Source: Cloeon dipterum (Eukaryota; Arthropoda; Insecta; Ephemeroptera; Baetidae). From it: a DNA stretch of 64,000 bases. Numbering within the stretch: position 1 is the first letter of the stretch; each line of letters opens with the position of its first letter. Of this stretch, positions 41,749 through 64,000 are shown in pieces. The stretch is from assembly GCF_949628265.1 (NCBI RefSeq), contig NC_088787.1, positions 3,152,501 through 3,216,500 on the forward strand, given 5' to 3'. Under the pieces are notes generated by a model that worked only from the letters and a program-made list of their open reading frames with translations, was not told the origin of the DNA and searched no databases. The translations under genes and the position numbers were made by a program.

Positions 41749-44700
41749 TCATTCTCCGACCTCATCTACGTTTGACGCTACGATTTCATCAAACCTTTTT
41801 AAACGAGTTTGATCATCTAAATAGTCCCGAGCAGTTTTGCCCTTATTGTCTCTTATGTTGACATCCACATTTTTAGACAGTAGTATTTCAATAATGTCCC
41901 AAGCCCCAAACCAGTGGCTCTTCTTGCAAGCCAGAATTAGCGGCGTTTCGTTCAAAGCGTTTCTCGCGTTCAAATCAACGCCACCTTGCTCCACAAGCCA
42001 ATGAACAATTAAGAATGGGTTGAATTTTTCAACTTTGATTGCCAGATGCAGAGTGGTATCTCCATTGTTCACACGCTGATTAACCAAATCACCATTTAAC
42101 TCATGAATGAATAGAGCCATGCGAAAGTTTCTCATCGCATGGTGAAATGCGTTCATCCCGTCGTTGTCTGTCGAAGCTAAATCAGCGCCTCTTTTGCACA
42201 ACTCTTGCACCAAATCAAAAGCATGTAAATCTTCTAACCCATCGTCTTCAGTGAAATTCATGGTGTAGTGCAGGGCCGTTCTTCCTTTTTTATCTTTCGC
42301 ATTTACATCAACGCGTTTAGCCAGCACCTTTTGGGCAATAATCCATTCTCCTCTCTTGCAAGCCAGCAGAAGGGGTGTCTCACCCTCGCTATTTGTCGAA
42401 TTCAAGTCAATTTGGCATTGTTTAACTAGCCAATTTATTATTTTCATGCAGTGATAAGACCTTATTGCCAAGTGGAGGGTTGAGTCTCCGTTTTTCAAAC
42501 GCTGTATCAACAAAGTATTATTTTTCTCGTGAAGAAATAAAAATACCTCGAAGTTGCCCGTTGCGCTGTGCAAGGTGTTCAATCCTTTGTTGTCTGTTAG
42601 AGTAAAATCCGCACCTTTTCCATGCATCAGCTTCACTAAAAACACGTTTCCTTTTTTTGCGGCGTAGTGCATTGCGGTTTTTCCCTTCTTGTTCGAGACA
42701 TTGACCTCAACATTGCTGGTCAGCAGCAATTCGGCGACTCTCCAGAACATTTTTTTGCAAGCCAATAAGAGTGGTGTATCGCCAAAATCATTTTTCGCAT
42801 TCAAATCGATGTCGCCTTGCTCTAAAATCCAGCGTATGATGCCATCGTCCTCTACATTATAGGATTCCAATGCCAGGTGTAGAGATGTGCTTCCGTCTTT
42901 TAAACTCTGTTTAAGAAGAGATCCGTTCTTCTCATTGATGAACCGTAAGATTCCTTCGTTGTTGATAGCGTAGTGGATCGCATTCTTTCTTTCCATGTCC
43001 GTTAAAGTTAAATCTGCGCCGTTTTCAAGCAACAATTTCACCAAATCAAAATTTTCTGATTGAGCAGCAAGGTGCATAGGTGTCCTTCCAAGATTGTCAC
43101 ATATGTTCACTCTCACGTTCTCTTTCAGTGCTGACCCAACAGATCCCTCACCAACATCTGGATTTCTTGCTTCCTCGGCCTGACAGGCTAAAAGCATTTT
43201 CACAAATTGCAAATGTCCTCCTTTAGCGGCAAAATGCAGCGCAGTCAATCCTTCATTGTCTACCACATTCAAGTCTCCACCAAGATCTATCCAAGTTTGT
43301 AAGGCGTCTATATCACCGCTTTTCGCGGCTAAATGTAGGCACGTTCGCCCTCGTTGGTTTTTTACTTCCAGGTTGATTTCTTTTGTCATCAAAAAGTCAA
43401 CCTTTTTTCCTCTGCAATGTGCAATACGCAACACAGTGCGGCCTTTATTGTCTTCTGCTCGTACGTCAACTCCAATCTCTTCGACCAGGAAACGCGCTTT
43501 CTTAGTCGAGAAATATCTGAATTTTAGATAAATATGCAGCCCTGTTTGACCACTTTTGGTTTTCTCCTTGGACAGCTGACTGTCGGTATTGTGCAACAAT
43601 CGAATCACTTTTTCTTGATGTTTACTTTCACTTTTGCAAGCAAAATGAAAAGCGTTCCATCCATTTTCATCAACAGCTCGAATATTTGCGCCAGATTGAA
43701 TTAACTCTTGGACACGATCAAGATATCCATGTTCCGCAGCACAATGAAGAGCAGTTTTTCCTCTTTCGTCCGTCATGTTAATGTCTTTCTTTTGTAGAAT
43801 TAAGAAATGGTCCATGTAGAAATTTTCATCCGAGGACCAATCAGTTGGTTCTCCACTTGGTCGTAAAGTGTTGACGTCAACCACTTCTTCGTCAACAAGC
43901 CATTGACACATTTCTAAATACCTTTTTTTTGCTGAACTTTGTAGGAAACTTCCTTCATTGCCATTTTCCACATTTTTAAAACTTGGATTTCTTTCTATAA
44001 AAAATTTTGCGATTTCTTTGCGACCCATTTGAATAGCAAAATGGAAAGCATTCAAATTTGCTTTTACTTCATTGATTGCGAAAGTTTCTTTGCTGCGTTG
44101 CAGTCCAGTAACGTTTTCCTCCAAAAAGTAGTTGACCAGGTCTAGGTTATTTACTTGAACAGCCACCATCATTGGGTCCCAGATTTGGTTATATGCATCG
44201 GTTGCCAATTTCGCGCCATGCTTGAGCAAAATTTCCACGCACTTTATAGCTCCATGTGCAATAGCGGAATATAGGGCGTTTCCGTAGAATTTTTCTATGA
44301 TATCTATGTCGACACCGTTTTGCAGCAGTAGATCAAGGATTTCGCCGTGATTCTGTCTTGCTGCAATCGCTCCAGCCTCAATTGTCAGTTTTCTAGAGCG
44401 GATCATCTCTGGCAATCTTGGATATTTTGTCTTCAGCTTTTCAAAGAAGTCGGTTGCGTTTGATTCAGCTATTGACTCCAACAGGGAAGGCAAAATCAGT
44501 AGCAACTCAGCGTCACTGTTGATTAAGTTGGTGTCTAGCAGCATGATTTCGATTTCTCCCGCACCGTTCAAAAGAGACTTATTCTTTGCAAAAGAAATGC
44601 CATTATCCTCTAGGTTTTTACTGAAGGTGATGATTGGATAAAGCATTTTGAAAATATTTACACAGCCATAGTGAACAATCAATTCCAAGAACTTATCTGG

Positions 44701-47700
44701 GTCCACCTTCACGATTGGAAGTATTGATGCTCTGTGCTCTTCTACCATTTCCTCATCAGTCAACACTGTGGAATAGAAAAGATCGACAAAATTTCGGTAC
44801 CCAAAATGCCATTCCCCTAAAAATAAATTTTCAAAATTATCAGTACTGGTTTGGAAATCGCATTCGCCACTATCCTCGATTTCTCGTAGGAAATGCTGGG
44901 CTGCAAGAAATTCGGCGAAAGTCTGATGAACGAAAGTAACCTTGTTGTTCTCAAAGGAAGCAATGCCATAGCAGTTGATTTTTTCAAGGTCTTGTCTCGT
45001 GTTACCAATTGGGGGAAATACTCTGATGTGGAAACTTGCTATCTGTCGAAGACATTCGAAAGCGACGTCAATTTCCTCTTGAAATTTGACTTTGTTGTTC
45101 TTGTCGTATCCATTCCTGATCAGAGAGTCCTCCACTTTGTGTCGCACAACCTGGTCGTAGATTTGGTACAAGTTTCCTTCTGCTCCGTACTTAGCAACCA
45201 AAGAAAGGTGCAAAGGATTACTTAAGATGTCCTTTGATGTAAATTTCTTGATGAATTCTTCATAATCGCCTTTAGTCTTTCCCGTCTCTTGCTGAAACAA
45301 CTCGATTTGCTGCTCTTGGTTCAAGCGATCAATCTTTACTAAAACAGCATTTGATGTCCGCTCTAGGATTGTTTTTTCTGCGTGAGGTCTCGTTCCGATC
45401 CATACGGATATCTGCTTCTTTTCAAGACCATTGATAACTTTCAGCACTTTTTCTTGGTTTTCAGGACGGATTTCGTCAAGCCCATCAAGAAACACAACAC
45501 ATTGCTTGTTTTCTATGCTTTTGATGATTTCCTCTTGTGAATTGTGAGTTGCTTTCGCCAGAAATTCAATCTCAGTTATATTCCGCTTTAGAATACTGAA
45601 CGAAACTTTTGGAAGAGAAACGCGTAGAATTTTTAATTCTGGATTTAATTTCCCGAGCTGAAAAGCCATTTCCCTGAGGATTGTCGTCTTTCCCGTTCCT
45701 GCGTCGGAACTCAAGAGCCAAATTTGTTTTTTTCTTGCTGATTCCTTGACCAAGCTGTCGAAGTTGAAGTTCGTTTCTTGAGATTCTTGCAAATTTTTCA
45801 CTGAAAAGTTAAGTTTCACAAAAGACCTAGGCCAGTCTGGAAAATTGAGAAGATATTGCAGCGTCGAGTTAATCATATCCCTACTTTCTATTGAATCGGA
45901 AATTAGAAGACTTGCGAGCAGTTCTTGCAGACTTTTCTCCTGTTTCAGCTCCTGCCCCTTGAAGATTTCGATCAGCTTTTCAAGTGTATCTATTTAGATG
46001 GAAAATATGAACTAATTAAAAAATCAAGAGGAGTTTAAATATATATACCTTTGTTGTGCAGAACTAGGACTAGCCATCCACTGTGGTTTGTTGCTGATAT
46101 TTCCATTTTGGGTCGTATTGGTATATCCTTTAGGAAACAAACTTATTGAGTTTTTTGTATTGTCTAGATATTTTGGAAATATTTTTAAATTAACTAGATG
46201 CTAAACGCACTTACGTAGTCAAATGAGCTCGTTTCCTGGTTCACAAGAAATAATATTTTTGGTTTTCCAATCCACTGGTCATTTTTCGGCCCGATGAACT
46301 CGCGCAGTATTTCTGATACTGCAGTTTCTCTGCTGTCCACCTGCACGCAAACCTCTTTCGTGTCCTTGTTTTCACTCAGACGGCCAAACAGAAATAGGAA
46401 AACGCAGCCAATGTCGGAGTCAAGCCTCGAGGCTGAAATATGAATTGCATAATTTCCGGCAATTCAATAAAATCAGTAATAAAACCTTCATTAATAGACG
46501 CCCAAGGCTTTCCACTGAGCATCCTTTCGCTGGTTTCAAAGTCTAGGTTTTGGGACAAGGCTCTTTTAATTTCTTTCAACTGTTCATTAGGCTCTGTGGA
46601 AAATAGGAACGCAAGGCGGTGTCGCAAGTTAACTCCTGAGCTCGACTTCCAAGAGTAAAACTCGCGTTTCTTTTTATTTTTTATGCCCATTGCGTCGGAT
46701 GTCAAGGGAGCCGAGTAGATTGAAGGACTTCTGAAACACAAATTTATCACACAATTAGAAAGCATATCAGGCATTGAAATGTATGAACACTAAGGAAATT
46801 CTGTTAAAAACTCACTTTGAGAAGACAAAACTTCTGTCCTGGGAAAACATCTTCACTTCTGGAGTTTGTCCAGTGTATTTTTTTTCCACGAAGTCCACAT
46901 TTTTGTGACTCTCATATTGAATATTTGCCAGGACATTTATGAGACTCTCGTCCCACTCAAGCGAATTTAAGACCTGGCACGTAAGGAAGGCGAATGTGGT
47001 TCCTGACTGGTTTCGCTTGGCCCTGGTCGCTGTGAAATTATTGTTATAGTCAGAGAAAATACCAATTGACAAAAGTCTTACTTTCGACCGTTGAAAAGAA
47101 CACAACCATGTTCTTTATTAGAGGGCTGTAGGTGATACGGCAGGAATTTTCGTTCTTGAAAGGGATATTTTTGTGGTTTGCGTCAAAAACCTCGTCACCC
47201 AGTTCCCCTCTGCATGGCTATCAATAAATTATGATATTATTATTATAACGCAATGGTGACAATACAGTAGAGACTTACACCAAAGTTTATGAATTTTAGA
47301 CATTCCTCGAAACCAGTGAGCTTTTTCAGAGAATTGAATATCTCCGCTGTTGTGAAGAAAATCAACTCGTCCGAGTGTTCGTTCTTGTAGTGGTCTGTGA
47401 AGATTATTCCGTCTCTGTAGCCGTGAGAAAGAATGTAAAGCACAAACACGGACGGAACTTCTGTAAAATTGATAAAGGTAAATAAAAAAATTAATTTAAA
47501 TTATTCGTTTTACCTGAAGAGCCGAATAATCGTAATAGCTCTTCCTGATTGGCGAGAAGGTGGAGCAACTTTCCTTTTTCCGGTGACAAAATACTGCGAA
47601 AATTGCAGTTCCGGTTCACTCTGAAGGTTCTCTTCAGGTTCTCTACGTCCTGAGCATCACCTTTCCGATGGAAGTTTTTGTTTTTGGCATTTTAAAAGTT

Positions 47701-47851
47701 GTAGTGGACGACGAGCACGCAAACACTGAGAATGAAGGTTTTTTTATAAAAAAAACGTCGGATAATTTCCACGATGTTTATACTTGTCTGCGTTTGTTCT
47801 ATTCTGGTCTTTGGAGACGAAATATCCTAAATTGGCCGGCCCCTCAGCCAT
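41749..47851 (-). CDS. caspase / pseudo-caspase / NACHT / ankyrin NLR-like protein
   Basis: Nine-exon model: 47784-47851, 47514-47725, 47279-47460, 47082-47217, 46816-47029, 46486-46730, 46215-46432, 46049-46127, 41749-45989; about 1,860 codons. Phases agree throughout. Exons 2-5 encode a caspase: NFHRKGDAQDVENL, VLYILSHGYRDG with the catalytic His (47423-47425), FGPCRGELGDEV with the catalytic Cys (47212-47214), then the small subunit FFSTVE, KRNQSGTTFAF. Exons 6-8 encode a second caspase-like unit in which SHG reads FGR and the QACRG region reads LVNQET. The last exon has a NACHT with Walker A SSDAGTGKTT (45682-45711), Walker B CVVFLDGLDE and a GTRP motif, a helical region ending FVHQTFAEFLAAQHFL, and at least twenty ankyrin repeats. 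In-frame TAA at 47692-47694 interrupts exon 2 in this model, so the 5' end is unsure. Role inferred: nucleotide-gated sensor that activates its own caspase. Confidence 0.8.
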
Positions 47852-49613
47852 TTTCTCCCCTGAAATTGTAAATAATCAGTGAAAACCAGTTAATTCCTCC
47901 AAGATCATGGAAAATTATTGGTTAAAAACTTTCAACGAGATTTTAGTTAAAGGGCGGCAAGGAATTGCACACTTTTGGAGGGCGGGAATGGTCTGGAGGA
48001 ATTTAAATTTTGCCTGTAATGCGTCGAAGGAAATTAATTTAACGCGCAAAGAGGCTTAATTTAATTATTTAAGGATATTCTTGGCTCGAAAGGGAAAAAT
48101 GTTGGTAGAAGGAAGCGCCAGTACTGCTCTTTCGGCGTCCTTAACTCCCTCAACAATCCTCCTAATTTCTTCCATATTACGTCAGTTTGCAAGTAACAAA
48201 ATTGAAGTAGCCGATAAATTAACTGAACATTCCTCCCATTTTTAATGGTTCTTGGTAATCAAACTATAATTAAACAAAAATTATTTAAGATGTAATAGTT
48301 AATGACAAAAACTCTAGATATTTAAATTTCAAAAATATTTTTTGAGGTTTCGTAACTGACTCCCGTCAACTGTTATTAATTTAAATTTTATAATTAATTT
48401 AATTCTTTCAAATTTTTTCCCAGAAATTTGTTATTATTAATCTTTATTTCACTGATATCACATTTAAAAAACAAGTGAAAAAGGCAAAAAAAGGGTAAAA
48501 AATCTGGTCACCGTAATGTAAATATGGCAATCTCTTAATTATGCATTTTATTTGTGTGATCGGTGCCAGCATGTTAAATGTTTTTCATCCTGTGTGTCGC
48601 CCTGCCGCGCGGCTGCTCGGCGGATGGCAAGAGGAAAGAGCGACTCGCGCACCAAAAGTCCAACAACCGCTATCAAGGCCGTCTGCTTTACCGCACTCGC
48701 GCTCTTATCGCAGCAGTCGGCAGGCGGCAAACATTATTTTATTACGCAGGCTCTGTGGCTCAGTTTTAGAAGAATAAATCAGCTTAAAAAATTAAATATG
48801 ACTTCCATTAATTCTTGAAGTGTTTCTTTAATTATTTTACTGAGCACTCAGTCAGTGAAAAGCCCAATAAATTAATTTTATAGAAAACCGTAAATTATAC
48901 ATGGTAGCGATAATATTTTGCATTTTTTATAATTTAATTTAACCTCAATAATGCTATCAAAACGGTTGCTAAAAATATAATAAATTGCAAAGCCAGGAGC
49001 AAATTAAATAAAAAAACCATTAGACTTACCAAATAGTTGATCTCACATTTAGTCAGAGAACTCGGGAAAATTTCCAGGGCTGTTGCCGCGCGGACGTGCA
49101 CACTCGCGACTCGCGGCAGCGGCTTCTCGTTGTTGTGTGCGTGCGGAGCGGCTGGCTGGCGAGTTTGCGACTCGCCTCTCGCGAGTTAGACTTTCTCGCT
49201 GAAAATGGGTCACCGCGGTTTATTCGCTCTCTTCTCTGTCAGTTCAACGCTCGCCCGCGCAGAGGCGGCAGCAGCCGCAAACTCGTTGAGTTATACAAGA
49301 AACTGCGGGGGTTCGTTCTTGCCGCGTTTGGGGCTAACACCGAGACACCTGATTGGGAGTGAGCCACGGCAACGATGCGATCAAGGGTCGAATTTTAATA
49401 AAAAAAAAAAAAAAAATTAATTCATTTGTGGCAAAGGCGGAAAACCCGTAAAAATGAAATTTATTTTTTCTATGGGTCAAAATTGGTAACTAACAATAAA
49501 ATTTATAAAATCTGCGGTTGAGCAAAATCAAAAAAAAATTACAGATCAAACTTAAAAGTGTATTTTTATTTAGCCATCATAAAAGCGCAAGTTTATTGAA
49601 TAATTTTAAAAAT
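47852..49613. other. intergenic, right of the NLR-like gene
   Basis: Presumed NLR promoter at 47.85-48.2 kb, then AT-rich sequence, then the right segmental repeat and the Y9 3' UTR. No gene. Confidence 0.5.
48540..49480. repeat. segmental repeat, right copy
   Basis: Direct partner of 38930-40110, with the same landmarks. The 49085-49290 part (GCGCGGACGTGCACACTCGCG, CGCCTCTCGCGAGTTAGACT) also resembles the block before Y8, so it may be a displaced yellow-gene promoter. Confidence 0.6.
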
Positions 49614-51500
49614 TCACAGCCATTGATGAAGAGGCGCTGCCATGATGACGCCGTATAAATCATTTTCGATTTCCACGTCCACCATTTCCGGCGGGACAGG
49701 ATTCGGGACAGTCGGCATTTCCATTTCCACGGCGCCTGGGCTGCGCTGCTCGTTGGAATTTCGCAATTTTCTCAATCTCAGGGTGAGCCACAGGGTGATA
49801 ATGAAGCTCAAGACCAAGAGGAAGGCCAACGAGCCGATCAAAGCAGAGTTGTCAGTTTGCCCTTTTCCTGCGAAACGTCCGCCATTGATGATTCAAAGAA
49901 TTTCCGGAAATAGCTATTTTGTTGGAGAAAGTTACCTGTCATCGGAGGATCACCGATTGCAGCCTTTAGTAGTCTGTACCTTCGTTTAGTTCCTGTTCTA
50001 TTAAGCTCAGTCAGCCAAAAGGTTTCCGACGAGTCCACGGCAAAAGTAAACGGCCGGTTAGTAGACAGCTGTCCAGCCTAAAAAACATATCGCGCTGTTT
50101 TAATTTTAGCTAATAACAATGGTTAAAATTTAAGAAATGAAACAAACCTCTCTAATTTAAAATAGGGAAAATGAAAACTAATCTAGAATTTCTTATTACA
50201 ATCGGCGACCTACCTGGTAAAAATGCTGCTCCTGAAATAACTGGGAGGTGTTCCAAGAATGTATGTAATAATTCCCTGAAAAGGCTGCATACATGATCCC
50301 GCGGTTGTCCATCAGCATTCTGTATGGCTTCGCCGTCCATTTTCCGATTAGTTCCGGATTTGCTGATCCAGTTCCTTCGCGAAGTGCGGCAACGGAAATT
50401 GAATAAAGTTCATTGGACTTGTATTTGCTGAAGTAAAGCCGTCTCGGTTCCTCCTTAGGGGACAGGGAAATGGAGGAAATCATGATTCCTGGCGTGTCCA
50501 CAGACCAAGATTGGTTTCTTTCCAAACTAAACACGACAATTTTTTGTTCAACACCCCGCGTGATGTAGGCCAAGGTTTCGTTGGGCGTTTCGTCCAGCAC
50601 CAAGTCATGCATGTGATAGCGAAAGGGAAATTGATGAATGAGTTTGGTTTGATCCGCGTTGACCAAATCAATGGTCCATAGTTTCGCATTGCAATGTTCG
50701 CTGCCGTCATCGAGCACCCACAGCCTGCCAACGGAATCAACCTCCAGCCCTCTCGCAGCCTGGATGGTCTTGTTGCAGTCTTGCAATTTCTACAAACATA
50801 TATTGTTACGTTTAAGAACAAATCTTCATAGAAAATTCAAAATTGGCTTACTCTTTTTACTCTGTTAAGGGTAAAATGAATTTTCAAAATTATTGCAATG
50901 CCATTTTTCATGTTAATAAATTATTTCTTATGACGTACAACACTGCAGCAAATTTTTATCTTATGCAGGTTGCATATTCGCACTAATATAACTTATCATC
51001 TCCTTGAGAGGAAATTGAAATAATTTGTGTTTATCCTGACCACGTGAAATCAAGAAAATTCAATCACGTGGCCGCTCATTTCATGAAAATGGAAGAAAAA
51101 TATACAAGTTTTGACTAACTAAAAAGTGACTTTTTGCTGAGCGCATTTCAATTGATTGTTACTCTTTACTTTTCACACTTACTTGGGTGTCCCAAGAAGG
51201 AATTGGAGTGAGTTTCGGGGACGCAGAGGACGCGCTGCTCGTAGGCAGAGACACCAGAGTCGCCGGAAGATTGTTGCTAAATTTATTAAGGCTGAGGAAG
51301 ATCCTTGTTCCGTAAACAGCCATGTAAAGAGGTTCAATATTCTCTGGATCGAATTTTCTGTCTTCCAAGGCCTGTGTCTTGTTCGCTTCCGACGGCCACT
51401 CGTAGTCCATTCCTTCGGGCCACTCGAAGACCAGAGTGAAGTTGACGGCGGTGACCAAGGAAATGCGGAGAAAAACGATGACAAAGAAGAAAGGATTCAT
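49614..51500 (-). CDS. yellow/MRJP-type protein Y9, membrane-anchored
   Basis: Four exons, 429 aa: 51183-51500, 50214-50789, 49936-50077, 49614-49867, in phase. Signal peptide MNPFFFVIVFLRISLVTA; a leader acceptor (TTTTTTCAG) sits 20 bp before the ATG. Propeller marks: VFEWPEGMDYEWP, MAVYGTRIFLSL, VDSVGRLWVLDDGSEHC, KLWTIDLVNADQTKLIHQFP, KIVVFSLERNQSW, STNRPFTFAVDSSETFWLT. Exon 4 begins GKGQTDNS and gives a transmembrane segment at about 355-376 (GSLAFLLVLSFIITLWLTL), RLRKLR, then a Pro-rich tail with NDLYGV. It is nearly identical to Y11 in the propeller but has an unrelated tail, so the anchor exon has been exchanged or has diverged faster. Possible roles are those of yellow proteins generally. 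Confidence 0.9.
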
Positions 51501-53531
51501 GACTCGAACGTTTCAGAACTGAAAAAAGTTAGAAAAGGTTGGTTATTTGAGAGAAAACTGCGGATTAAGAACAGAAAAAAGATACAATTCAAATAGATTG
51601 TTAGAGTTCAGCCTTTGTTTATAGTAAAAAGAGTTGAAAAAACTGCTTTCAAGAAATACCAACTTGCTCGGTGGATAAAAACGGAGGCAAAACTGCAGCT
51701 ATGTGTCGCAGAAAGTTGAGTGGCTTTTAAAATGAACGAGCTCGCCTTTATATAGCAGCCATCCCGGATATATTTAACCTATCGCTTTATTGATTTTGAT
51801 AAAGGCACTACGCACAAGGTGATAAGACAATATGCAGTCGGAATAAGGTTTTGCGTTTCATTTTCAAATAGGATTTACGCACGCATGTATATGTTTTGCG
51901 TCAGAGGTCGATAAGAAGAAACTAAAATAGAATCCGCGGCCTAACCGCAGAAACATGAGACATAAATAAGCCTGAATCTCGGTCGCAACTCAAACCAAGA
52001 AGAACAATCACCACAAATCGAACAATTCAAGTGGCATGACATCGATCAAAGGTTATTTAATGTTCTCGAATTATTTTCAGCACTTCCCTTATAGGCTATA
52101 AGTGGCCGCATAGGATCTTTGGATCTTTGCACCTCTCTGTGTTTTATTGAAACGCCACATATTGGTCCACAAAGCCGCTGGAAAGACGCGAAAACCATCC
52201 CGTTGAGCTCTTTGAGTGTTTCAACTCTCCTAATTAACCACCTTTTGCCATCTATGCTAAAAATAAATCCCTCTGAAAAGCAAATTAACTGTCCGCGGAG
52301 AAAACTTTAAAAACGTGAGCCAATTGGCTGGCTGAAAAAAGAATATTATTCGTGTTTTGTGTTGCCCATTGCGAGAGGACGCATTTAAATTCAATAATTC
52401 TAGTTTCTGCTAATTTAATTTTACCCTCTCTGTGACTCAGTCGCATTTTCAAGCGCAGGATGCGTGTATGCGTCAGTTTAATGGATAAGAATAGAACCGC
52501 AGAAACAGAAATACACCTCGCTTTGCGCACGTAGACACGGACAAGGAAAAACTGCAGCCACAATTCAAGCAGCAGAGCTGACTAATTTTTTATAAATAAA
52601 ATTCCATGGATTGCACGCTTGATCGACATAAATTTTCGATAAATACACCTGGCCAGAGTACCGAATAATATGTTAAAATGATGGAAAATAAATACTGAAA
52701 TATTAAGGAGAAAAGGGGGCTTGAAAAATGCGAAACAGCGCTGAGCCAACAAAGTCGGCCGCTGGCTTTAACGGCAAAACAAAATTCAAAAGTTCAACTG
52801 GCGTTTCGAAGAAATATATCAAACAATTCTTTTATCTTTAATATTCATCAAAAATATTCATAAAAATTACGAAAGTCATTTTAAAATCATCATAAACGGC
52901 TTCCTCGTGGATTTAAATTTTCTTTGCTGAGCTCCGCCTCCTCAACTCCATATCCTACTCCTCTCCTCGGAATGCCATTCATTTCAAGGTCGCGTGCCTT
53001 GTATTTTACTCTTCTGAGCGCACTTGATTAATTTTCATTCATTTCCCCTCCGCACCCTTAGCTATGCCATTCAAAGTCGCGTGCCTGCTTCCCCCTCCGA
53101 TTATGTCATCACTCAAAGCGCTAACAGCGCCGTGTCTGAGTGAGTGGGGCAACCGGGGGCAACTGCTGAACCCCTTCTCTCGGCTTTGAAAATGCAAGCT
53201 CCGCCTCCTCTAATTCGTTTGTTCCCCCTCCAGTCGCATGCTTGCATAGACTGGCAGTTTTTCTCCCCGCCCCACTGACGTCATACGAGTGCCACCAGCG
53301 CCGTGTCTCACGCAGCTTCTGAACTAACACAAACAGGCTGTGGCAACAACGCTCTGCTTCTCGCGGCCACTGTAAACCCCGTTAAATCATGATAAAATCC
53401 TTGTTTTTCTTTTTGTAGGGCATGAATTCTTAAGATGCTATTCCAAAAATGTTCCCGAATTCCTCTCATTTCCAACCACTTCACTAACCCTTCAGCTTGT
53501 GTATCATTGCTTTGAGATTTCTCGCTCGGAA
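51501..53531. other. shared upstream region of Y9 and the zinc-finger gene
   Basis: Y9 and the zinc-finger gene diverge from here. The 52.4-53.34 kb part is repeated at 58.5-59.5 kb, upstream of Y10. TGACGTCA lies at 53275-53282. No protein gene seen. Confidence 0.5.
51746..51754 (-). promoter_or_regulatory. TATA box of Y9
   Basis: TATATAAAG on the minus strand, about 250 bp before the ATG. A start near 51720 would give a short non-coding exon ending at GTTG/GTATTT (about 51659), spliced to the acceptor before the ATG. The Y11 upstream region has the related TATTAAAGG at the same place. Confidence 0.55.
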
Positions 53532-55496
53532 ATGTCGTTAGTGAAGCCACTGTGCGTTTTTTGCGAGCGTCCGACGGCGGACGGCGCTGTCCAGGCTGTC
53601 CAATTGGACAAAGAGAAGCTGCAGACTTGGTTCTTGAACGTCTGCGGCTACGAATTTGCCGAGGAAATCGAAGAAACGGACTTGATTTGCAATTTCTGCA
53701 TCTGGCACGCTGAGTGAGCAGCAGCGGGACTATTTTTTGTTTCGTTTTGTGACGTTTTTTTAATTTTAAGGTTTCTAGCCAAACATGATGGCGAGCTTGA
53801 ATCTTTGGCTTGGTGGCCGCAAGATCCGGTCTCTCTGGACGACGAGGCGAAGGAGCTGAGAGAGAAATATTTAGGTACACGAGCTTTTAAATTTTATTAT
53901 AGAACTCTAAAATTGAGGTAATTGTAGTTAAATTGACGCAAGAAAAGGGGACTGAATGAAAGGTTTCGGAATTAACAAAAACGTTAATATAATAAGGCAG
54001 TAGGAAATAGAGGAGAACATAATAACAAAAATAATATACTGCCGTATTGAAGGTTGTAAAAACAATATAAAAAACTGAAGTTACTTATTGTAGTATAATA
54101 CTTAAAGTCGATAAAAATTAAGATTTTACCTCGGTTCACGGTGCGTTTCGCCCTTGAAATCTTTACTAAGTTCATCCAAACATTATATACGCTTTTTAAT
54201 ATGACTAAATTATTAGCTTTTGCCGTAACTTTGTCTGGATTAATTGTTACAGAAGGAAAAGTAGAGCAGTGTTGGGTGCAGCTCGAGAAGATCGAGCTGC
54301 CGAAAAGCGAGACGGAAGAAAATGCGGAGCACGAGGCAATGTCTGACGGTCGAAAGAGCAAGAAGAAATGCTTCTACTGTGGACAAGCTGTCGCAAACAT
54401 GAGTAGTCACATGAGATGTTTGCACGAGAATGCCATCAAATGTGACAATCATAAATGTTCCACATATTTCCACACTGTCGAGGAAAAGGACAAACACACC
54501 AAGGAAGTGCATCAAAAGTCCAAAGAGAAGAAATTGATCAAGTGCAATTTTTGCGAGAAAGAGTTTCGGAGGTCCGATATATACAGGGATCATATTCGTC
54601 GTAATCATGCAGAGTTTTGCATCAGATGCAAATTCTTTGGTTGCCTCTGTTATTTCAAAGCCGAACCTGAAATGAGGGACCACTTTGATGCTGTTCACAA
54701 GGAAGAAAACGAGGCAAAAGTCTACAATTGCCATTGTTGCGAGTTCAAATCTAAATTGAAAAAGGATTTGTTGCGTCACATTTCTTGTTTGCATTTGCCA
54801 AAGGTGATCAAGTGCAACAAATGCCACAAATTGTTTTCGACTAAGCAGAATCTGGCAAAACATGCAAGACTAAATCATGAGACTCGGGTGTGCTCAATTT
54901 GCAATTCAAATGTTTTTCTTAGAGAGATGAGTCGCCATTTGAAAAGCATCAACTGCAAGCGCTGTAAGAATGATTTTGAATGCTCAGGTTTGTACCAATC
55001 GCACTGGAAAACTTGCAAAACAACTCTTTTCAAATGTGACAAGTGCCCAAAGTCATTTAAAATACCTGCTTTATTGGATTACCACGTGAAAAGGAAACAC
55101 AGAAACAATTCCTGGCGTGGTTTGCAGTACAAAAAACTTGGATTCAAGTGCGAGCCGTGCAAAAGGTACCACAAAAGTGAAAAAGTATTGAAAATCCACT
55201 TGAATCAATTTCACAAGAGACTGAATTCGAAGCACTGCGCGCACTGTCCAAAATACTTCACTGATTTTTCATACTTGAAAAACCACTTGGCTGTTGAACA
55301 CAATTTGATTGAACGCAAATTCGAATGCGGTGAGTGCCAGAAGAAGTTTGTTTCTTCAAGTTTTCTGGCTTCACACAAAAGAAAAACACATTTACTGATC
55401 AGAAATCTGAAATCATGTACTGTGTGTGGAAAATCAATGGCTGAAACTTGGTTGAAGACCCATTTGTTGACGATTCATGGCATTAGAAGTCCGTAA
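53532..55496 (+). CDS. C2H2 zinc-finger protein with a ZAD-like N-terminus
   Basis: Three exons, 509 aa: 53532-53713, 53771-53874, 54253-55496, in phase (donors GA/GTGAGC and TTAG/GTACAC). The N-terminus has CVFC and LICNFCIWHAEFLAKHDG, a four-cysteine layout like the insect zinc-finger-associated domain, which mediates dimerisation; this assignment is tentative. After an acidic linker come about eleven or twelve C2H2 fingers, for example KCNFCEKEF...HIRRNH, KCDKCPKSF...HVKRKH, HCAHCPKYF...HLAVEH and ECGECQKKF...HKRKTH; one or two lack a full set of ligands. It is probably a nuclear DNA-binding regulator. It is the only plus-strand gene in the window and may share a control region with Y9. 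AATAAA at about 55758 may be its polyadenylation signal. Confidence 0.85.
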
Positions 55497-57250
55497 ATAT
55501 GATAGTGTCCACTAAATATTGAGAGAAAATATATCATCTGTTTAAATGTGTTTAGAGAATTGTTTTGGAGGACTGTAGTTTCGGGATTGTGTGTCCTTGG
55601 TTGAGCTGCGACTGTAACTTTTGTTTTTCCATCCCTTTTACCAAGAGGGCGTGGACCTTTGATGTACAAAAATAATTTTCTGCATAATCTACCTATCATT
55701 TTCCCACTTTTGTATTTCATTTAGTTCTGTAATCAGCCATCTTTGTAAATTTACTTTCAATAAAAATCGTGGTAAAGGTACAACATGAAATTTTACTCGA
55801 CCACAATCGCTCTCGATGTTAGAAAAAATTAGCATTACTCACAGTTGCCTTCGTGACCCGTAATACAGACCGCTAGCATCCTAGCATGGGTTATTTTTGT
55901 ATTTGAAATTATTAGCAATTGAAGGAAACTATTTCGTTATTTTCTGCTAATTTTTATTTATATATAAAGTCAATTAACTAATCTGTTATAGCTATCTAGG
56001 GAAAATTACTAGATTTGAACACAGATTTGAATTTAAATAAAAATCATCTGTTTAAAATACGGCACGTGACTGACGTTTATGCAGATTCTGCTTGCCATTT
56101 TTTGGCCTTTGTTCATGTAATTTTATGATCGTCTCTAATTGAACGTAAGGTTACGAGTCATAAACTATAAACAACAATAAAAATAGCCAAAACCAGGTTT
56201 TCATTTCAATCAAATTCTCCAAAAATTGCTCCAAACAATGCAAGTTGATATACGCGTTCTAACAAAAGCCCATTTTCTTACAATAAGAGGTTCAAAATAA
56301 TAAATAAATAAAATAAATGTAATGTGAGAAGGCTTTTTGAGCCACAAATATCATCACTTGAAGAATTTGCAATGCCCCCTCACAGGCATGGAGATTGACA
56401 GCTCAGCCCCCTGAGTAAAGGTGGCGCCAGGGTAGCCAAAACGACTGGAGTAAATATGTCGTCGAGTAGCCTGACAAAGGGACGGTTTTGCGTATGGCCA
56501 GAGTTTTTTCGAGCAAGAATGCATGCAATCGGCTAGACATTAGTGCAGCGCAGGTTGCGTTTTCTTGTTCGCAGGAGGAAATATGTTTAATATTCATCAA
56601 CGCCTGGATTGTTTCGTTCGCATGAATTCGAAATTAGTTAAAATGAATATATATGCAACCGGCGTGACTTTGTTTATACGCAGGTTGCATATTCATCCGC
56701 TTTTTGAGTTGGTTTATTCAATCCAGACTCCAGAGGCAACGACGGCTTGAGCTAATTCATTGATTTATTCACAATTCGCCAAAAAATCGTGCTTTGAAGC
56801 CTTTCTGCGTCGATTTATACTCGCTTTCCCACCTCTCAGAGCAATGGAATTAATTTATAACTTATAACCAATTTGTGTTTAATTTTTGATCTTTTGTGCA
56901 TAACAGATTAAAAAAACATAGGTCACATTTTATTAGAGATTAATTGTCATTGTATAATTATTTCCTTCGTGAAAATACAACAGAACGCCTGAAGGTAGAA
57001 AAATCAATCTGCGGCTACATTGATAGTAAAAAATAAATTTATTTCAGCTGAAATTTATGAGAGCTCCCAAGTTTGTTTCATTCGAAATATTAAACTTTAA
57101 ATAACTTATTAACAATAAAAATTAGAAAATCTGTTTGAACAACTTCTAAAATTAAATTACAGGTCAAACTTTCAGTTTATTTTTTACCATGAAGTCTTCA
57201 CAAGAGCGCAGAATTAATGTAAGAACATATAAAATAACATGTATTTTTTC
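55497..57250. other. intergenic between the zinc-finger gene and Y10
   Basis: 3' UTR of the zinc-finger gene, then AT-rich DNA. A small hairpin at 56648-56692 (ATATGCAACC / GGTTGCATAT) matches GCAGGTTGCATATTCGC at 50964 and 62939, a minor dispersed repeat. No gene. Confidence 0.45.
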
Positions 57251-58030
57251 TCACTGCCTTGGTCGAGTGGGAGGGGCCGTGACGACGCCGTATAAATCAT
57301 TCTCGATTTCCTCGTGCACCATTTCCGGCGAGACAGGATTCGGGATAGCGGGAATTTCCATTTCCACGGCGCCTGCGTTACGCTGCTCGTTTGAATTTTG
57401 CAATTTTCTCATCCTCAGGGTGAGCCAGACGTTGATAATGAAGCTCAAGACCAAGAGGAAGGCGAGCGAGCCGATAAATGAAGAGTTTAGATATTCCCCC
57501 TTTTTCCCTTCTTTTTTGAAATATGGTCCGCCTTCACCGCATGCACAGTCCGGTTTAACAGTGGTGAAAGTAAGAGTGGATACCTCTGGAAACAATATTT
57601 TACATAATTCTCTTGATGGTTGATAGATATTTTTTAGCGAAAATGTACCTGTGATCGTTGGTGAAATACTGATTTTTGGCTTCGCATTGACTGCAGCCTT
57701 TAGTAGCCTGTAACTGGGCATGTCCCACGAAGGAACTGGAGTGAGCTTCGGGGACGTAGAGGACGCGCTGCTCGTCGGCAAAGACACCAGACTCACCGGA
57801 ATGCTATTGTATTTTTTAATGCTGAGGAAGATCCTTGTTCCGTAAACAGCCATTTAACGAAGAGAAATATTTGCTGCTTTGAAAGTTCCGTCTTTCAAGG
57901 CCTGTGTCCTGCTCTCCTTGGAAGGCCACTCGTAGTCCATTCCATGGGGCCACTCGAAGACCAGAGTGAAGTTGACGGCGATGACCAAGGAAAGGTGAAG
58001 CAAAATGATGAAAAGGAAGAACGGTTTCAT
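57251..58030 (-). pseudogene. yellow/MRJP-type pseudogene Y10
   Basis: Relative of Y9 and Y11 (start MKPFFLFIILLHLSLVIA at 58030, VFEWPHGMDYEWP). Two lesions are visible. A TAA replaces the Tyr codon before MAVYGTRIFLSI (57854-57856). Then PSWDM joins straight to SYRLLKAAVNAKP, which is the end of the last-blade exon, so intron 1, the whole main propeller exon, intron 2 and most of exon 3 are missing. The anchor exon survives: an intron 3 donor near 57646, then stalk, SSFIGSLAFLLVLSFIINVWL, LRMRKLQ and a tail like that of Y9 (ENDLYGVV). It cannot make a propeller. Confidence 0.85.
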
Positions 58031-60928
58031 GACTCGAACGCTCCCGAACTGCAAAAAATAAGAAAAGGTTTAAGTAATGCTGAATGGAATAAATAGAAAA
58101 TCAAACAAAAATTAATAAATCAAAGAGAAACACAGCTTTATCCATAGTATGCTAGTAATGTAAGAAGAGTAGTTCAATTCAAAATCCAAAATCAGCAGAA
58201 ATCGCTTCCAATAAGCACGAACCTATTCGCTGGGTGAAAACGAAGGCAATGTGCAACTATGTGTAGTTAAAAGATGACTGAGAACTTCTACCAAACAAAG
58301 CAAACCACTGCTTAAAAATCTTTGGACTTTGATCGTAAACATAAATATTAATATTATCCGCATCTCCCAATTGTAAAAAACATATTTGCTCTTGCTAAAT
58401 ATTATTTCTTAAGTTATCAGATGAAACAAACAAATATTTCTGCTTTCTTTTTGTTTTAACTTGTCTGCGACTCACTCAGCTTTAAAGCAGGATGCGTGTT
58501 TGCGTCGGATTTTGATAAGACAATAAGCTGGCTAACTGTAGGACAAGCTCCCCGCACCTCGGTCACAACCTAGTTTGCGTCAGAGGTTAATAGGAATAGA
58601 AGCAGGCCTGCAACTCGAACAATAAAGGAAATGAGTTTTCAACTCAAGTGAAGCAGTTTGAAAGCAATTCTTGTGCGGATTGCGTTCGATTTTCAAGCAG
58701 GAAATTTACTTGCGTCAAAGAGGGCGATAAGAAGGGCTGCTATCAACGTCAGCCTAACCGCAGAAACATGCAGGCCTGCAACTCGCTTGCGCACGTAGAC
58801 ACAAAAGAACAAGGAAAAATCGAAGCTACAATTCAAGCAGCAGAGCTGTCTGATTGCTAGATTTTTTCTAAATAAAATGCCATAGAAAGCGCAGACAGTT
58901 CGTTCGATTAATACACGAGGCCAGTGCCGAATAATATGTGAAAATTAGGGAAATACTGAAATATTAAGGGGAAATATGGCTCAATAAATGCGAAACATGC
59001 AATTATATTTTAATCTTTTAGATTTTTTGCGCGTCAGTCCGCTCTGAATGTCTGAAAATAAGGAATATTCTCAAAACGGCAGCCTCCTCGCTTTTATTTT
59101 AATTTTCCCAGTGCCACTTTGTTGCTCTCCATTCATTTTCATTCATTTCCCCTCCTCTCACTTTGCTATGCCATTCATAGTGATCCATTGTCGCGTGCCT
59201 GCCTCTTCATTTGGCTGATTCTCTCCCCACCCCGCTGACGTCACACCAAGAGCCACCAGCGCCGCGTCTGATTGTGAGTTGGGCAACTGCTGAACTAACG
59301 TCAGGCCCTTCTCTTGGCTTTGACTTGAAAGCTCCGCCTCCTCTACCTCATTCGTTTCCCCTCCAGGCCTCCAGCGGTATGCCATTCAAAGTCGCGTGCC
59401 TGCTTCGTTCTTCTGTCTAATCTTTTCCCCGCTTTCATTGACGTCACACGAGTGCAACCAGCGCCGCGTCTGAACTAACACAATCAGGCTGTGCTCTCGC
59501 AGGGTTTGTAAACGCTAATCCAAAATCCAGTTCCCCTCCAACTAAAAATATTCAGGTTTGACTTTTTCAAATGACTCCCACAGCGAGATTAGAACAATGG
59601 TATACGCTCTACGCAGTTTCTTGAAACGTTCCAAGTGAGCCAGCGACATACTTGAACTGTTAATAAATAACCACCCATTTTGTTTCACCGTTTTTCTCAC
59701 AGTCAATTTTTTAACCGCTTCAGAGTCCTATAAAAATTAAAAAATAGTAACACAAGATTGTAATATTCTTAAGCAGGATGTTAGTTTTGCGTCAGAGGTT
59801 CGATAAGAAACCAAAGCTGCAGAAATAAATTAAAAATTCAATCACTCGGCTCGATTTGAAATATCTCGCTATCTCTCAAAAGCAGGAAATTGCGGTATGA
59901 CCGTTTGACGCAGGCTGACTGATTTGGAAAACGGTAAAATATAAAGACTTTGATGGCATTCTCTCCTGGCTTCTCTAGGTTCTCCAAACAAAGATGAAAA
60001 GCGTCCAAAATATTTAAAAATTATTTACTACGCATTTGAAAACTGCAAAATTGAGACGCATTGAACCCTGGAGGAAAAGGATTGTCGACTTTTGTTGCTT
60101 CTGCCGCAAATTTTCTAGTTTTTCGCCTCTGATTTCTGGATTCAGAATCGCAGTGGCGTCAGACCTCAGACTGGGCTGGCCGGTGACGTCAGCGGAAACG
60201 GCTGGGAAGGGGAAGCGCGGTGGTCGGAGAAGCACAGCTGGCAGGAAGTAGGCAATAAGGGAAGTGCTGGAAAAGCGAGGTGGCCGGGCCGCGGTTTTTC
60301 GATCTTTTCCAGCTTTAAATCAAATTTCAAGGCCTGCAGATGTGAAGAAATGAATTTTTCTATTTTAAACTTTATTTTGCATTTATTTTCAAGTTCAATT
60401 TGAGATTTTATACCTGCTTAAGGCATGAGATTTGCTCTATTCTTGATTTTCGCTTTGTTGTTATCAATGAGGTTGTTGTAAAGGTTTTAGTTTATAAAAA
60501 TCTGCTGAAGAAAAAACGCAAGAAAAATGCATATAAAATCCATTTTCATACCGCCAACAGCTCGCTGCTTTCTTTATTGTTTCCCTGGATACCTTTTTTA
60601 AATATAAATCAGATCGAGGTAGCAGGACAAAATGAAGAAAAACCAAAGCACTGTCTTTTACACACTGCCTATACTTGACAGCCGTTTCAACGTTTTATTT
60701 TAAAATTTGGTTTCTTTAATTTCTGGTAACTAAATTTTGCTGTGAAAAATTGATTATTCAATAGAAGTGAACGGTACTATGGACATAAAATTCTAAGAAG
60801 TAACCAGGTTATTTTTTATTTTCGCCTAAAATAATTATAATACAACCATGTTAAAGGAAAATGCGTCAATGAGTAAAATAAGTTAAACTATTAATATTCA
60901 TATTAAAAACCAAGATGTGATGCGGTGC
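58031..60928. other. intergenic upstream of Y10, with duplicated CRE-bearing segment
   Basis: 58.5-59.5 kb duplicates 52.4-53.34 kb (GCGCACGTAGACAC, ACAATTCAAGCAGCAGAGCT). Within 59.10-59.50 kb a unit of about 200 bp is repeated in tandem (ATGCCATTCA, GTCGCGTGCCTGC, TGACGTCAC, CCAGCGCCGCGTCTG). Further TGACGTCA at about 60184. From 60.3 kb on it is AT-rich. No gene. Confidence 0.5.
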
Positions 60929-63476
60929 TTATGGCAGGATTTGCAGGTACTGCGCCAACTCGGAAGTAGTGTCTTCGAGAGATGGTGTCGTGGGAGTTTC
61001 CGGTGCAACGTCGTCGTACAGAGGTTCCAATTGAGAAGTGCGGACGTAGTCGTCCTCAACTGGAGCACGAGGCGCCTCTCCAAAATTCTCGAAAGTCCTC
61101 TGCCTCTCAGGCATCGCTCTCACTCTTCTCGCCGATCGCGGGCTGAGACGAATCGGTCGCTCGTAGAGACTAGGAGGCGTAGCAGCCGCGTGGTCGTATA
61201 TTACGACTTCCTCGTACAGCGGCACTTCCGCGGGGCCGACGTCATCGTGGTTTTCAGCGATAACGGACATTTCCCGGGCCTCCGTCGTGTTTTGCAAAAG
61301 GGAATTGCTTCTTTTCTGTCTCAGGATGAGCCAAAGAATGATCAAACTCGACAGGATCACGGTGAATACGTTGGAGCAGATCAGAATGATGTTAAACAAG
61401 CTGGATGGTTCAGTAATGGTCTCTTGGCAATTGGGGGCGGGGATTTGATTGGCTGAAATATTAAAAATAAATCACCATGGTGTCGTTTTTTTCTTGAAGC
61501 TTTCCATTGAAATAAAAAGGAACTAAGAAACAATTAGGAAAGAAAAAATAAATGAAATTGATAGTAAATTTGGTTTTCAGTGATTATCTTAAAAGTTAAA
61601 AAGTACGGGGAATTTTGGAAATTTCCCGTCCCAGTTTCACATATTTATAAAAGTGAGCCAAATATCTAAAATTTAACCTAAATTTCCGGCAATGTGATTG
61701 TTACATATGCATGGGTGAACTGTAAATTGGTGGCTAGAAATAAAATGTAATGCCATGCAACTACGGTTATCGCTGCAGCGAGTCCTTTTTAATTAAATCT
61801 GGTTTTTGCAAAACTCATTAAAAATTTAGCTCTTTGTCTGGCTTTTAATATAAAGAAAAATGAGATTTTTGTTTGATTTAAAAGTTTTCAGAGGAAACTT
61901 ACCTGGTGAGGCCTCAAAGATGTAGGGCTTCGCACCGACTTCAGCCTTTTGTAGTCTGTACTTTCGCTTATTCGCTGTTTTATTAAGCTCAGTGAGCCAA
62001 AAGGTTCCCGACGAGTCCACGGCAAAAGTAAACGGCCGGTTGGTAGACAGGTGTCCAGCCTAAAAAAGTATCGGGCTATTTAATTTTAGCTCATAACAAT
62101 GGTTAAAATTTAAGAAATGAAACAAACCTCTCTTATTTAAAATAGGGAAAATGGAAACTAATCTAAAATTTCTTATTACAATCGGTGACCTACCTGATAA
62201 AAATGCTGCTCCCGAAATGGCTGGGAGGTGTTCCAAGAGATTAGGGAATTCTTTCCTGAAAAGGCTGCATACATGATCCCACGGTTGTCCATCATCATTT
62301 TGTAAGGCTCCGCCGTCCATTTTCCGATTAGTTCCGGATTTGCTGATCCAGTTCCTTTGCGAAGTGTGGCAACGGAAATCGAATACAGTTCATTGGACTT
62401 GTATTTGCTGAAGTAGAGCCGTCTCGGTTCCTCCTTAGGAGACAGGGAAATGGAGGAAATCATGATTCCTGGCGTGTCCACAATCCAAGATTGGGTTTTT
62501 TCCAAACTAAATACGACAATTTTTTGCTCATTTTCCCGTGAGATGTAGGCCAAGGTTCCGTCGTGAGTTTCGTCCAGCACCAAGTCATGCATGTGATAGC
62601 GAAAGGGAAAGTGATGAATGAGTTTGGTGTGGTTCGCGTTGACCAAGTCAACGGTCCATAGTTTCGCATTGCAATTTTCGCTACCGTCATCGAGCACCCA
62701 CAGCCTACCAACGGAATCTACTTCCAATCCTTTTGCAGCCTGGATGGTCTTGTTGCAATCTTTAATTTTCTACAAACATAATATATTGTTACGTTTTAGA
62801 ACAAATCTTCAACGAAAATTCACATTTCGCTTACTCTGTTAAGGGTAAAATGAATTTTCAAAATTATTGCACTGCCATTTTTCGTGTATATAAATTATTT
62901 CTTATGACGTACAACACTACAGCAAATTTTTATCTTATGCAGGTTGCATATTCGCAATAGCCACACTCATGTAACTTAGCATCTTTTTTGGAGGAAATTA
63001 AAATAATTTGTATTTATCCTGACCAGAAATCCAGAAAATTCAATCACGTGGCCGCTCATTGCATGAAAATAGAAGAAAAATCTACAAAATTCAACTAAAA
63101 AGTGACTTTTTTCTGAGCGCATTTCATTTGATTGTTAATCTTTACTTTTCACACTTACTTGGGTGTCCCAGGAAGGAAATGGAGTGAGCTTCGGGGACGC
63201 AGAGGACGCGCTGCTCGTCGGCAGAGACACCAGAGTCGCCGGAAGATTGTTGCTAAATTTATTAAGGCTGAGGAAGATCCTTGTTCCGTGGACAGCCATG
63301 TAAAGAGGTTCAATATTCTCTAGGTTGAATTTCCCAGCTTCCAAGGCCTGTGTCTTGTTCGCTTCCGACGGCCACTCGTATTTTAACGCATCGGGCCATT
63401 CGTAGACTTGCGTGAAGTTGACGACGGTGGCCAAGGAAATGCGGAGAAAAACGATGACAAAGAAGAAAGGATTCAT
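60929..63476 (-). CDS. yellow/MRJP-type protein Y11, anchored, long tyrosine-motif tail
   Basis: Four exons, 524 aa: 63159-63476, 62194-62769, 61903-62059, 60929-61452, in phase. Signal peptide MNPFFFVIVFLRISLATV. Propeller marks: VYEWPDALKYEWP, MAVHGTRIFLSL, VDSVGRLWVLDDGSENC, KLWTVDLVNANHTKLIHHFP, KIVVFSLEKTQSW, STNRPFTFAVDSSGTFWLT. Transmembrane segment at about 370-393 (NVFTVILSSLIILWLILR) and a cytoplasmic tail of about 130 residues, the longest here. The tail carries five separated tyrosine sites: PLYEEV, VIYDH, SLYERP, DDYVRT and PLYDDV, in an acidic, Pro/Arg-rich context that resembles docking or sorting motifs. The tail shares no clear sequence with that of Y9 although the propellers are close. 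Possible receptor-like or trafficking role (inference). Confidence 0.88.
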
Positions 63477-64000
63477 GACTCGAAAGTTTCCGTACTGAAA
63501 AATGTACGAATAGATGTTATTAAAATGCTTTAATTTAAGAGGAAGTCGCAATTTAAAACAGAAAAAATTAACAATTCAAAGAGCTATAAAGTTTTATTGT
63601 AAAAGGTAGAGCCATCTATTTAGTATGAGAAGAGTGTATTTAATAATAATTTGTATAGAAACTACTTCCAAGATAAATACGAACCTGCACGCTGGGTTAA
63701 AAAGGAGGCAAAACTTCAGCTGTGTCGCAGAAAGATGAGTGGTTTTTAAAGGCAATTAGCTCGCCTTTAATAGCTACCAACCCGGAACAATTTAACCTAT
63801 TATCGGTTGATAAAGGCACTACGCAGAAGGCGATAAAACCACAAATCACCAAATAAGGAAAACTTGTGAGCAACATACAAGTTGGAAATTCCGGAAATAT
63901 CGGCTATTGAATTTTTTAAATCAATTAATATTAATTTTTGAGAGTCTTTTGAAGAACAGCTGCTAATTCAGAGCACAAAAAAACATACTTTATAGCCAAC
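63477..64000. other. upstream region of Y11, to window end
   Basis: Resembles the Y9 upstream region: CACTCATCTTTCTGCGACACAGCTG (split over 63710-63735, minus) and the weak TATTAAAGG near 63772. It likely contains the Y11 promoter and a non-coding first exon. Nothing else seen. Confidence 0.45.

Follow-up and report, generated by a model that had tools for sequence, protein, structure and literature searches.

The window, by which we mean the whole stretch of 64,000 nucleotides analysed here (C2:3152501-3216500), comes from the mayfly Cloeon dipterum (Ephemeroptera, Baetidae), an insect host as the original prediction had stated. On its reverse strand, a 1414-codon open reading frame (41749-45993) holds the NACHT and ankyrin matches of a Pfam scan, and caspase and caspase-like exons were located upstream of it by tblastn with paralogues. 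As Table 1 shows, these elements form a ten-exon model in which the introns are GT-AG throughout, the phases are consistent, and 1876 codons contain a single internal stop. The first exon (48175-48146) is the least certain of the ten; the 5' end of the gene probably lies past 47851 and reaches the ATG at 48175, while a start at 47851, which is in frame too, is a possible alternative. A single database protein was recovered from this locus, a 999-aa model that starts at 44748 and holds ankyrins only. The original prediction had described a single phase-consistent gene, and the phases do agree over all ten exons, but the reading frame is not open: the in-frame stop of this copy had been overlooked, and the locus proves to be one of about 100 in the genome.

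Table 1. Exons, domains, motifs and flanking genes at the locus (positions in the window)
Feature	Position	Strand	Evidence
Exon 1, probable	48146..48175	-	ATG at 48175; N-terminus like paralogue P0001; GT donor, in-phase AG acceptor
Exon 2, caspase N-terminal leader	47784..47854	-	tblastn with P0002; splice sites, phase
Caspase, domain extent	47725-46816	-	
Exon 3, caspase p20, first part	47514..47725	-	tblastn with paralogues, genome search, gene model
Premature in-frame stop TAA (exon 3)	47694..47692	-	gene model, genome search, paralogue comparison, same assembly
Exon 4, caspase p20 with catalytic His (SHG 47428-47420)	47279..47460	-	gene model, motif positions
Exon 5, caspase catalytic Cys (PCRG 47217-47206)	47082..47217	-	gene model, motif positions
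Exon 6, caspase p10-like part	46816..47029	-	tblastn, gene model; family profile matches caspase-3 and -7
Caspase-like unit without dyad, domain extent	46730-46049	-	
Exon 7, linker and first part of pseudocaspase	46486..46730	-	profile matches, gene model
Exon 8, pseudocaspase core, other residues at His/Cys positions	46215..46432	-	profiles, alignment, gene model
Exon 9, pseudocaspase end	46049..46127	-	gene model
Exon 10, NACHT and ankyrin array	41749..45989	-	ORF list, Pfam scan, motif scan
Walker A (exon 10)	45711-45679	-	motif scan
Walker B (exon 10)	45501-45469	-	motif scan
FVHQTFAEFLAA (exon 10)	44934-44899	-	motif scan
Ankyrin array, first units weak	about 44637-41857	-	Pfam and repeat scan
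yellow/major royal jelly protein gene array	7123-37719, 49600-63500		PF03022 in 4/4 ORFs scanned
C2H2 zinc-finger ORF, 465 codons, within yellow array	54099-55496	+	

The stop precedes both catalytic residues of the caspase, and the first in-frame ATG after it lies downstream of the catalytic Cys. Rescue by splicing was considered, as exon 3 has frame-keeping AG dinucleotides beyond the stop (offsets 96, 105 and 132), and was rejected because splicing at any of them would cost the caspase its beginning, and with it the first Arg motif. No protease is likely to be made from the window copy, which is probably a null allele or null copy within its family. Any loss is likely recent, since the remaining frame is open and the end branch of the window copy in a quick tree is short (0.029). 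The gene model, the genome search and the paralogue check that support the stop all draw on one assembly and are not independent of one another.

The gene is flanked on both sides by an array of yellow/major royal jelly protein genes, from which all four of the several ORFs that were scanned match PF03022. Units of this array near 50.2-51.5 kb and 62.2-63.5 kb resemble near copies of each other, and a zinc-finger ORF lies within it. Two Cloeon database models on short contigs, P0009 and P0011, combine domains of the caspase-NACHT family with PF03022; these joins are probably run-on predictions across neighbouring genes, and the models hint that the adjacency of the family with yellow genes may recur.

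A family in two mayfly genera

A search for paralogues over 190 Mb of genome in 10 contigs, as the original prediction had proposed, returned at least 101 NACHT matches at E<=0.001. A family caspase lies less than 5 kb upstream on the same strand of at least 85 of these 101, with a median gap of 1548 bp. The corresponding control counts are 2 of 101 for a family caspase placed downstream and 0 of 101 for one on the other strand, and uniform placement would be expected to give 0.26 NACHT matches with an upstream caspase. On the expected value and the downstream count, a chance association of caspase and NACHT was rejected. The count of 85 is a lower bound, as it used 195 family-caspase places drawn from match lists of limited length, with rows resembling already entered exons left out. 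Generic PF00656 matches alone give an upstream caspase at 28 of the 101 NACHT matches; with family and generic matches combined the figure rises to 89, leaving 12 at which a caspase was not found. The NACHT matches concentrate on two contigs (46 on C4 and 34 on C2) and form tandem clusters, the largest of which, on C4, has 18 members.

We fetched 20 paralogue loci and dropped one (L017), where no family caspase was seen. The SHG motif of the catalytic His is present in all 19 that remain. Stops were sought in the 3.4 kb upstream, ignoring four residues at each match end. All six caspase and pseudocaspase exons are present and stop-free in 16 of the 19 loci; within the 3.4-kb stretch the other three are incomplete, with L018 and L023 lacking the first exon and L026 lacking four, its caspase lying further upstream. 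In the caspase exons that were located, no stop occurs in the 19 paralogue loci and one occurs in the window copy. The genome search likewise shows a paralogue, with caspase exons starting at C2:1728891, whose four listed exons are free of stops.

Database models point to the same architecture. Precomputed Pfam annotation places PF00656 and PF05729 in one chain in 43 of the 90 database proteins listed, 27 of them from Cloeon and 16 from Neocloeon; the Cloeon models apparently derive from two assemblies and are partly redundant. These models, together with the at least 85 of 101 loci above, bear out the claim that caspase, caspase-like unit, NACHT and ankyrins belong to one gene architecture. 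That a caspase gene and an adjacent NACHT-ankyrin gene had been misread as a fusion, as the ankyrin-only database protein at the window locus and five shorter models with caspase and pseudocaspase without NACHT might suggest, is scarcely credible and was rejected, given splicing in phase, the spacing, an order and strand that are the same across those loci, and fusion models in two species.

Those five models are of 441-533 aa, four from Neocloeon (P0065, P0066, P0068 and P0078) and one from Cloeon (P0077), and they may represent stand-alone effectors, isoforms or models that were cut short.

Databases were searched with the protein of the window and with two alignments of the family, each search scoring some 8,000 candidates with shared exact words. 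The caspase-NACHT members among the matches listed come from Cloeon dipterum and Neocloeon triangulifer alone. The other listed matches, which include proteins of a beetle, fungi, oomycetes and fishes, carry ankyrin domains and neither caspase nor NACHT. Of 91 sequences, the 62 with both caspase units went into a quick tree, with SH-aLRT as its only support measure. The tree has a starred group of 36 Cloeon rows and a second one of 21 Neocloeon rows, and the other five rows fall in two lineages that each hold both species; P0070, P0069, P0041 and P0035 sit on long branches. On these sequences, the tree reads as a separate expansion in each species from few ancestral genes.

Caspase, pseudocaspase, NACHT and ankyrin units

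The original prediction had recognised a caspase with both catalytic residues, and the SHG and PCRG motifs are found in the window copy, though downstream of the stop. It had also made the gene's case depend on whether the upstream exons match caspase profiles. They do: a family caspase profile built from 11 members matches caspase-3 with an E value of 1.5e-14, and a Pfam C14 match is seen in 11/11 members scanned. The profile extends over both the large and the small subunit, as expected of a peptidase of family C14A. Of the 48 family proteins collected, 35 were aligned; the catalytic His position holds His in all 34 rows with a residue there, and the catalytic Cys position holds Cys in all 33. 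The active-site motif is GPCRG or near it rather than QACRG: the Gln gives way to Gly in 33 rows and to Ala in one, and the remaining row has a gap. A further position, just before the Gly-Ser/Thr of the small subunit, is that of the S1-pocket Arg of classical caspases; Arg is kept there in 21 rows and replaced by Thr in 11, with gaps in the other 3. The combination of QACxG with the pocket Arg was thus not found in the 35-row alignment. With the Gln replaced and the pocket Arg often Thr, specificity for Asp, or even activity, is not assured; proteolytic activity of the family caspase is plausible. A cluster of canonical caspase matches lies elsewhere in the genome, at C5:27147932-27160033, apart from the NACHT family.

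The second caspase-like unit, also part of the original prediction, is upheld by two sets of profile matches. Against the PDB, among the best 60 of 87 matches, its profile finds an ancestral effector caspase first (E 9.5e-7) and caspase-8 at 3.7e-5, with the first non-caspase at 0.22. Run against a set of 1278 ORFs, a domain profile built from 67 proteins matches exons of the genome's canonical caspases, at best with E 5e-7, and it matches 0 of 784 control ORFs at E<=1; the one match among the control ORFs, at E 0.022, was to the active-caspase profile. The His-Cys dyad is absent from this unit in 11/11 aligned members, as judged by eye, and Pfam C14 is found in just 2 of 11. Direct profile comparison of the second unit with the family's own caspase alignment gave no similarity. 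Judged by sequence, the unit is a pseudocaspase, that is, a caspase homologue without the dyad.

The NACHT domain with Walker A and Walker B motifs and the long ankyrin array are likewise present as predicted. PF05729 scores 29.6 bits on the window ORF against a cut-off of 26.7, the broader AAA family exceeds its own cut-off as well, and the Walker A motif and a Walker B of the form hhhhDGhDE were both located, which together place the domain in the NACHT clade of STAND NTPases. Ank_2 reaches 335 bits, and a crude scan counts 19 ankyrin-like units, whereas 200 shuffles average 5.2 and never exceed 11. The C-terminal repeats are ankyrin, LRR families are absent from the Pfam scan of the window ORF at E<=0.01, and scans of the full-length relatives P0001, P0022, P0046 and P0067 contained no CARD, PYD, Death or BIR domain. 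The description of the protein as NLR-like therefore holds for its NACHT-repeat architecture but not in the strict sense, as membership of the bona fide NLRs fails without LRR. We class the family as probable NLR-like STAND receptor-proteases, not as bona fide NLRs.

Pooled dN/dS values were obtained with bootstrap ranges from eight C4 paralogues (L020-L036), a ninth copy, L018, being left out. They are 0.42 for the caspase (0.32-0.53), 0.33 for the pseudocaspase (0.22-0.51), 0.40 for NACHT (0.33-0.50) and 0.74 for the ankyrin part (0.62-0.89). The caspase, the pseudocaspase and NACHT are under purifying selection. The higher ankyrin value arises from a low dS (0.14 as compared with 0.28 for NACHT), dN being similar; as it is not above 1 and is driven by low dS, positive selection on the ankyrins was rejected. 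The low dS may reflect gene conversion, and relaxed or diversifying change combined with gene conversion would fit the pattern. Four C2 copies, with dS near saturation, give a weaker contrast (medians 0.25 and 0.33). A comparison of ankyrin site classes over 6 units in the reference copy found no clear pattern.

A candidate single-chain receptor-protease

Our best reading of these proteins is as adaptor-free NLR-like receptor-proteases with the pseudocaspase partner in the same chain. In such a protein the ankyrins would bind a ligand or a guarded host protein, upon which NACHT would exchange nucleotide and then oligomerise, and oligomerisation would bring the caspase domains together. The pseudocaspase could act as the activating partner within the same chain, much as c-FLIP, an inactive caspase homologue, is the activating partner of caspase-8. 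Both systems would pair an active caspase with an inactive homologue; they differ in that the mayfly units lie in one chain, and their pairing is a predicted one. The protease would then cleave itself or host proteins, and cell death or an immune signal would follow without CARD or PYD adaptors. We infer the immune role, and the assignment of sensor and effector, from domain order and the literature. At E<=0.1 the genome has one CARD match (C3:11478003-11478242), and an exon-by-exon six-frame search for gasdermin (PF04598) gave no match at E<=1, a search in which no control genome passed the cut-off. The single CARD match and the lack of a gasdermin match fit an adaptor-free design and say nothing on the substrate.

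Taken as a whole, a baetid family of NLR-like STAND receptor-proteases that works by this single-chain mechanism, and of which the window copy is probably a null member, is the best explanation and a reasonably probable one. We hold more tentatively, as a serious possibility, that it constitutes an adaptor-free inflammasome evolved in baetids: a repertoire of single-chain receptors, at most some 90, whose ligand-gated NACHT oligomerises a caspase that the covalently attached pseudocaspase activates. If so, insects would gain an expanded intracellular recognition that they were thought to lack. The 85 to 89 caspase-NACHT loci and the expansion in two genera would show that insects can build NLR-like repertoires with the protease within the sensor. 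The family would also make two ideas testable, namely the gating of a caspase by a pseudocaspase of the same chain and the firing of a fused protease by NACHT oligomerisation alone.

Three further alternatives bear on this explanation. The fusion proteins could be genuine and serve a non-immune role, in self/non-self or gamete recognition, developmental cell death or genome conflict, which we find rather doubtful. The tandem, species-specific expansions with faster-changing repeats are usual for recognition repertoires and argue against such a role; repertoires that expand in this way do include non-immune recognition. The immune role is itself one that we infer, and allorecognition genes occur among fungal NLRs, according to the available text of PMC12881547, both of which leave room for this alternative.

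Alternatively, the caspase module could be silent or much altered, a scaffold that recruits ordinary caspases while the receptor signals through partners. Replacement of the Gln before the catalytic motif in 34/34 rows, Thr in place of the pocket Arg in 11/32 and a second unit that lacks the dyad in 11/11 would all suit a scaffold, but the catalytic His and Cys are invariant wherever a row has a residue, SHG is retained in 19/19 fetched paralogue loci, and the caspase exons are under purifying selection. We regard the scaffold as unlikely. The last alternative concerns the window copy, which would be intact if its stop were an assembly or sequencing error. As the single internal stop in an otherwise open frame, on a short branch and in a family whose caspase exons, where located, were free of stops at all 19 fetched loci, the TAA invites this suspicion; the database model of the locus, however, likewise omits the N-terminal part, and we think an error improbable.

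Relation to known systems

No report of a mayfly caspase-NACHT-ankyrin family was found in the literature searched, preprints and most subscription papers aside, and the 2020 paper on the Cloeon genome uses none of the words NACHT, caspase and ankyrin in its main text. The available part of one review (PMC7308585) describes large NLR expansions in a sponge, a sea urchin, a coral, a lancelet and zebrafish, and fits the point of the original prediction that NLRs are not known from well-studied insects. Bona fide animal NLRs (CARD/PYD/Death-NACHT-LRR) resemble the receptor-proteases described here in that NACHT follows an N-terminal effector part and precedes C-terminal repeats. They differ in that the mayfly family has ankyrins in place of LRR and a protease with a pseudoprotease in place of a domain that recruits adaptors.

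Fungal NLRs are alike in having an N-terminal protease and a NACHT that is often followed by ankyrin; in the text available from two sources (PMC4986451, PMC12881547), their N-termini include S8 serine proteases and CHAT, their repeats are WD40, TPR or ANK, and some control gasdermins. What sets the mayfly family apart is a caspase of metazoan type and a pseudocaspase. In cyanobacteria, the part of a survey available to us (PMC2853523) lists two metacaspase-NACHT-WD40 proteins, which similarly join a protease of caspase fold to NACHT and repeats; these are metacaspases, however, with WD40 repeats, and that part of the survey does not mention a pseudocaspase. Among sponges, the legend of a figure of NLR architectures in the demosponge Dysidea avara names a CASc (caspase) domain (PMC12909245, available in part). 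The likeness is in this legend entry, and the NLRs of that figure are NACHT-LRR. Elsewhere among animals, and again from partial texts, cnidarians show an expansion of NACHT proteins that carry other effector domains (PMC8260672), CHAT, glycosyltransferase and NACHT genes with TPR, LRR or ankyrin repeats are expanded in Acropora (PMC12314368), and placozoan NLRs carry WD40 or TPR repeats (PMC6321704).
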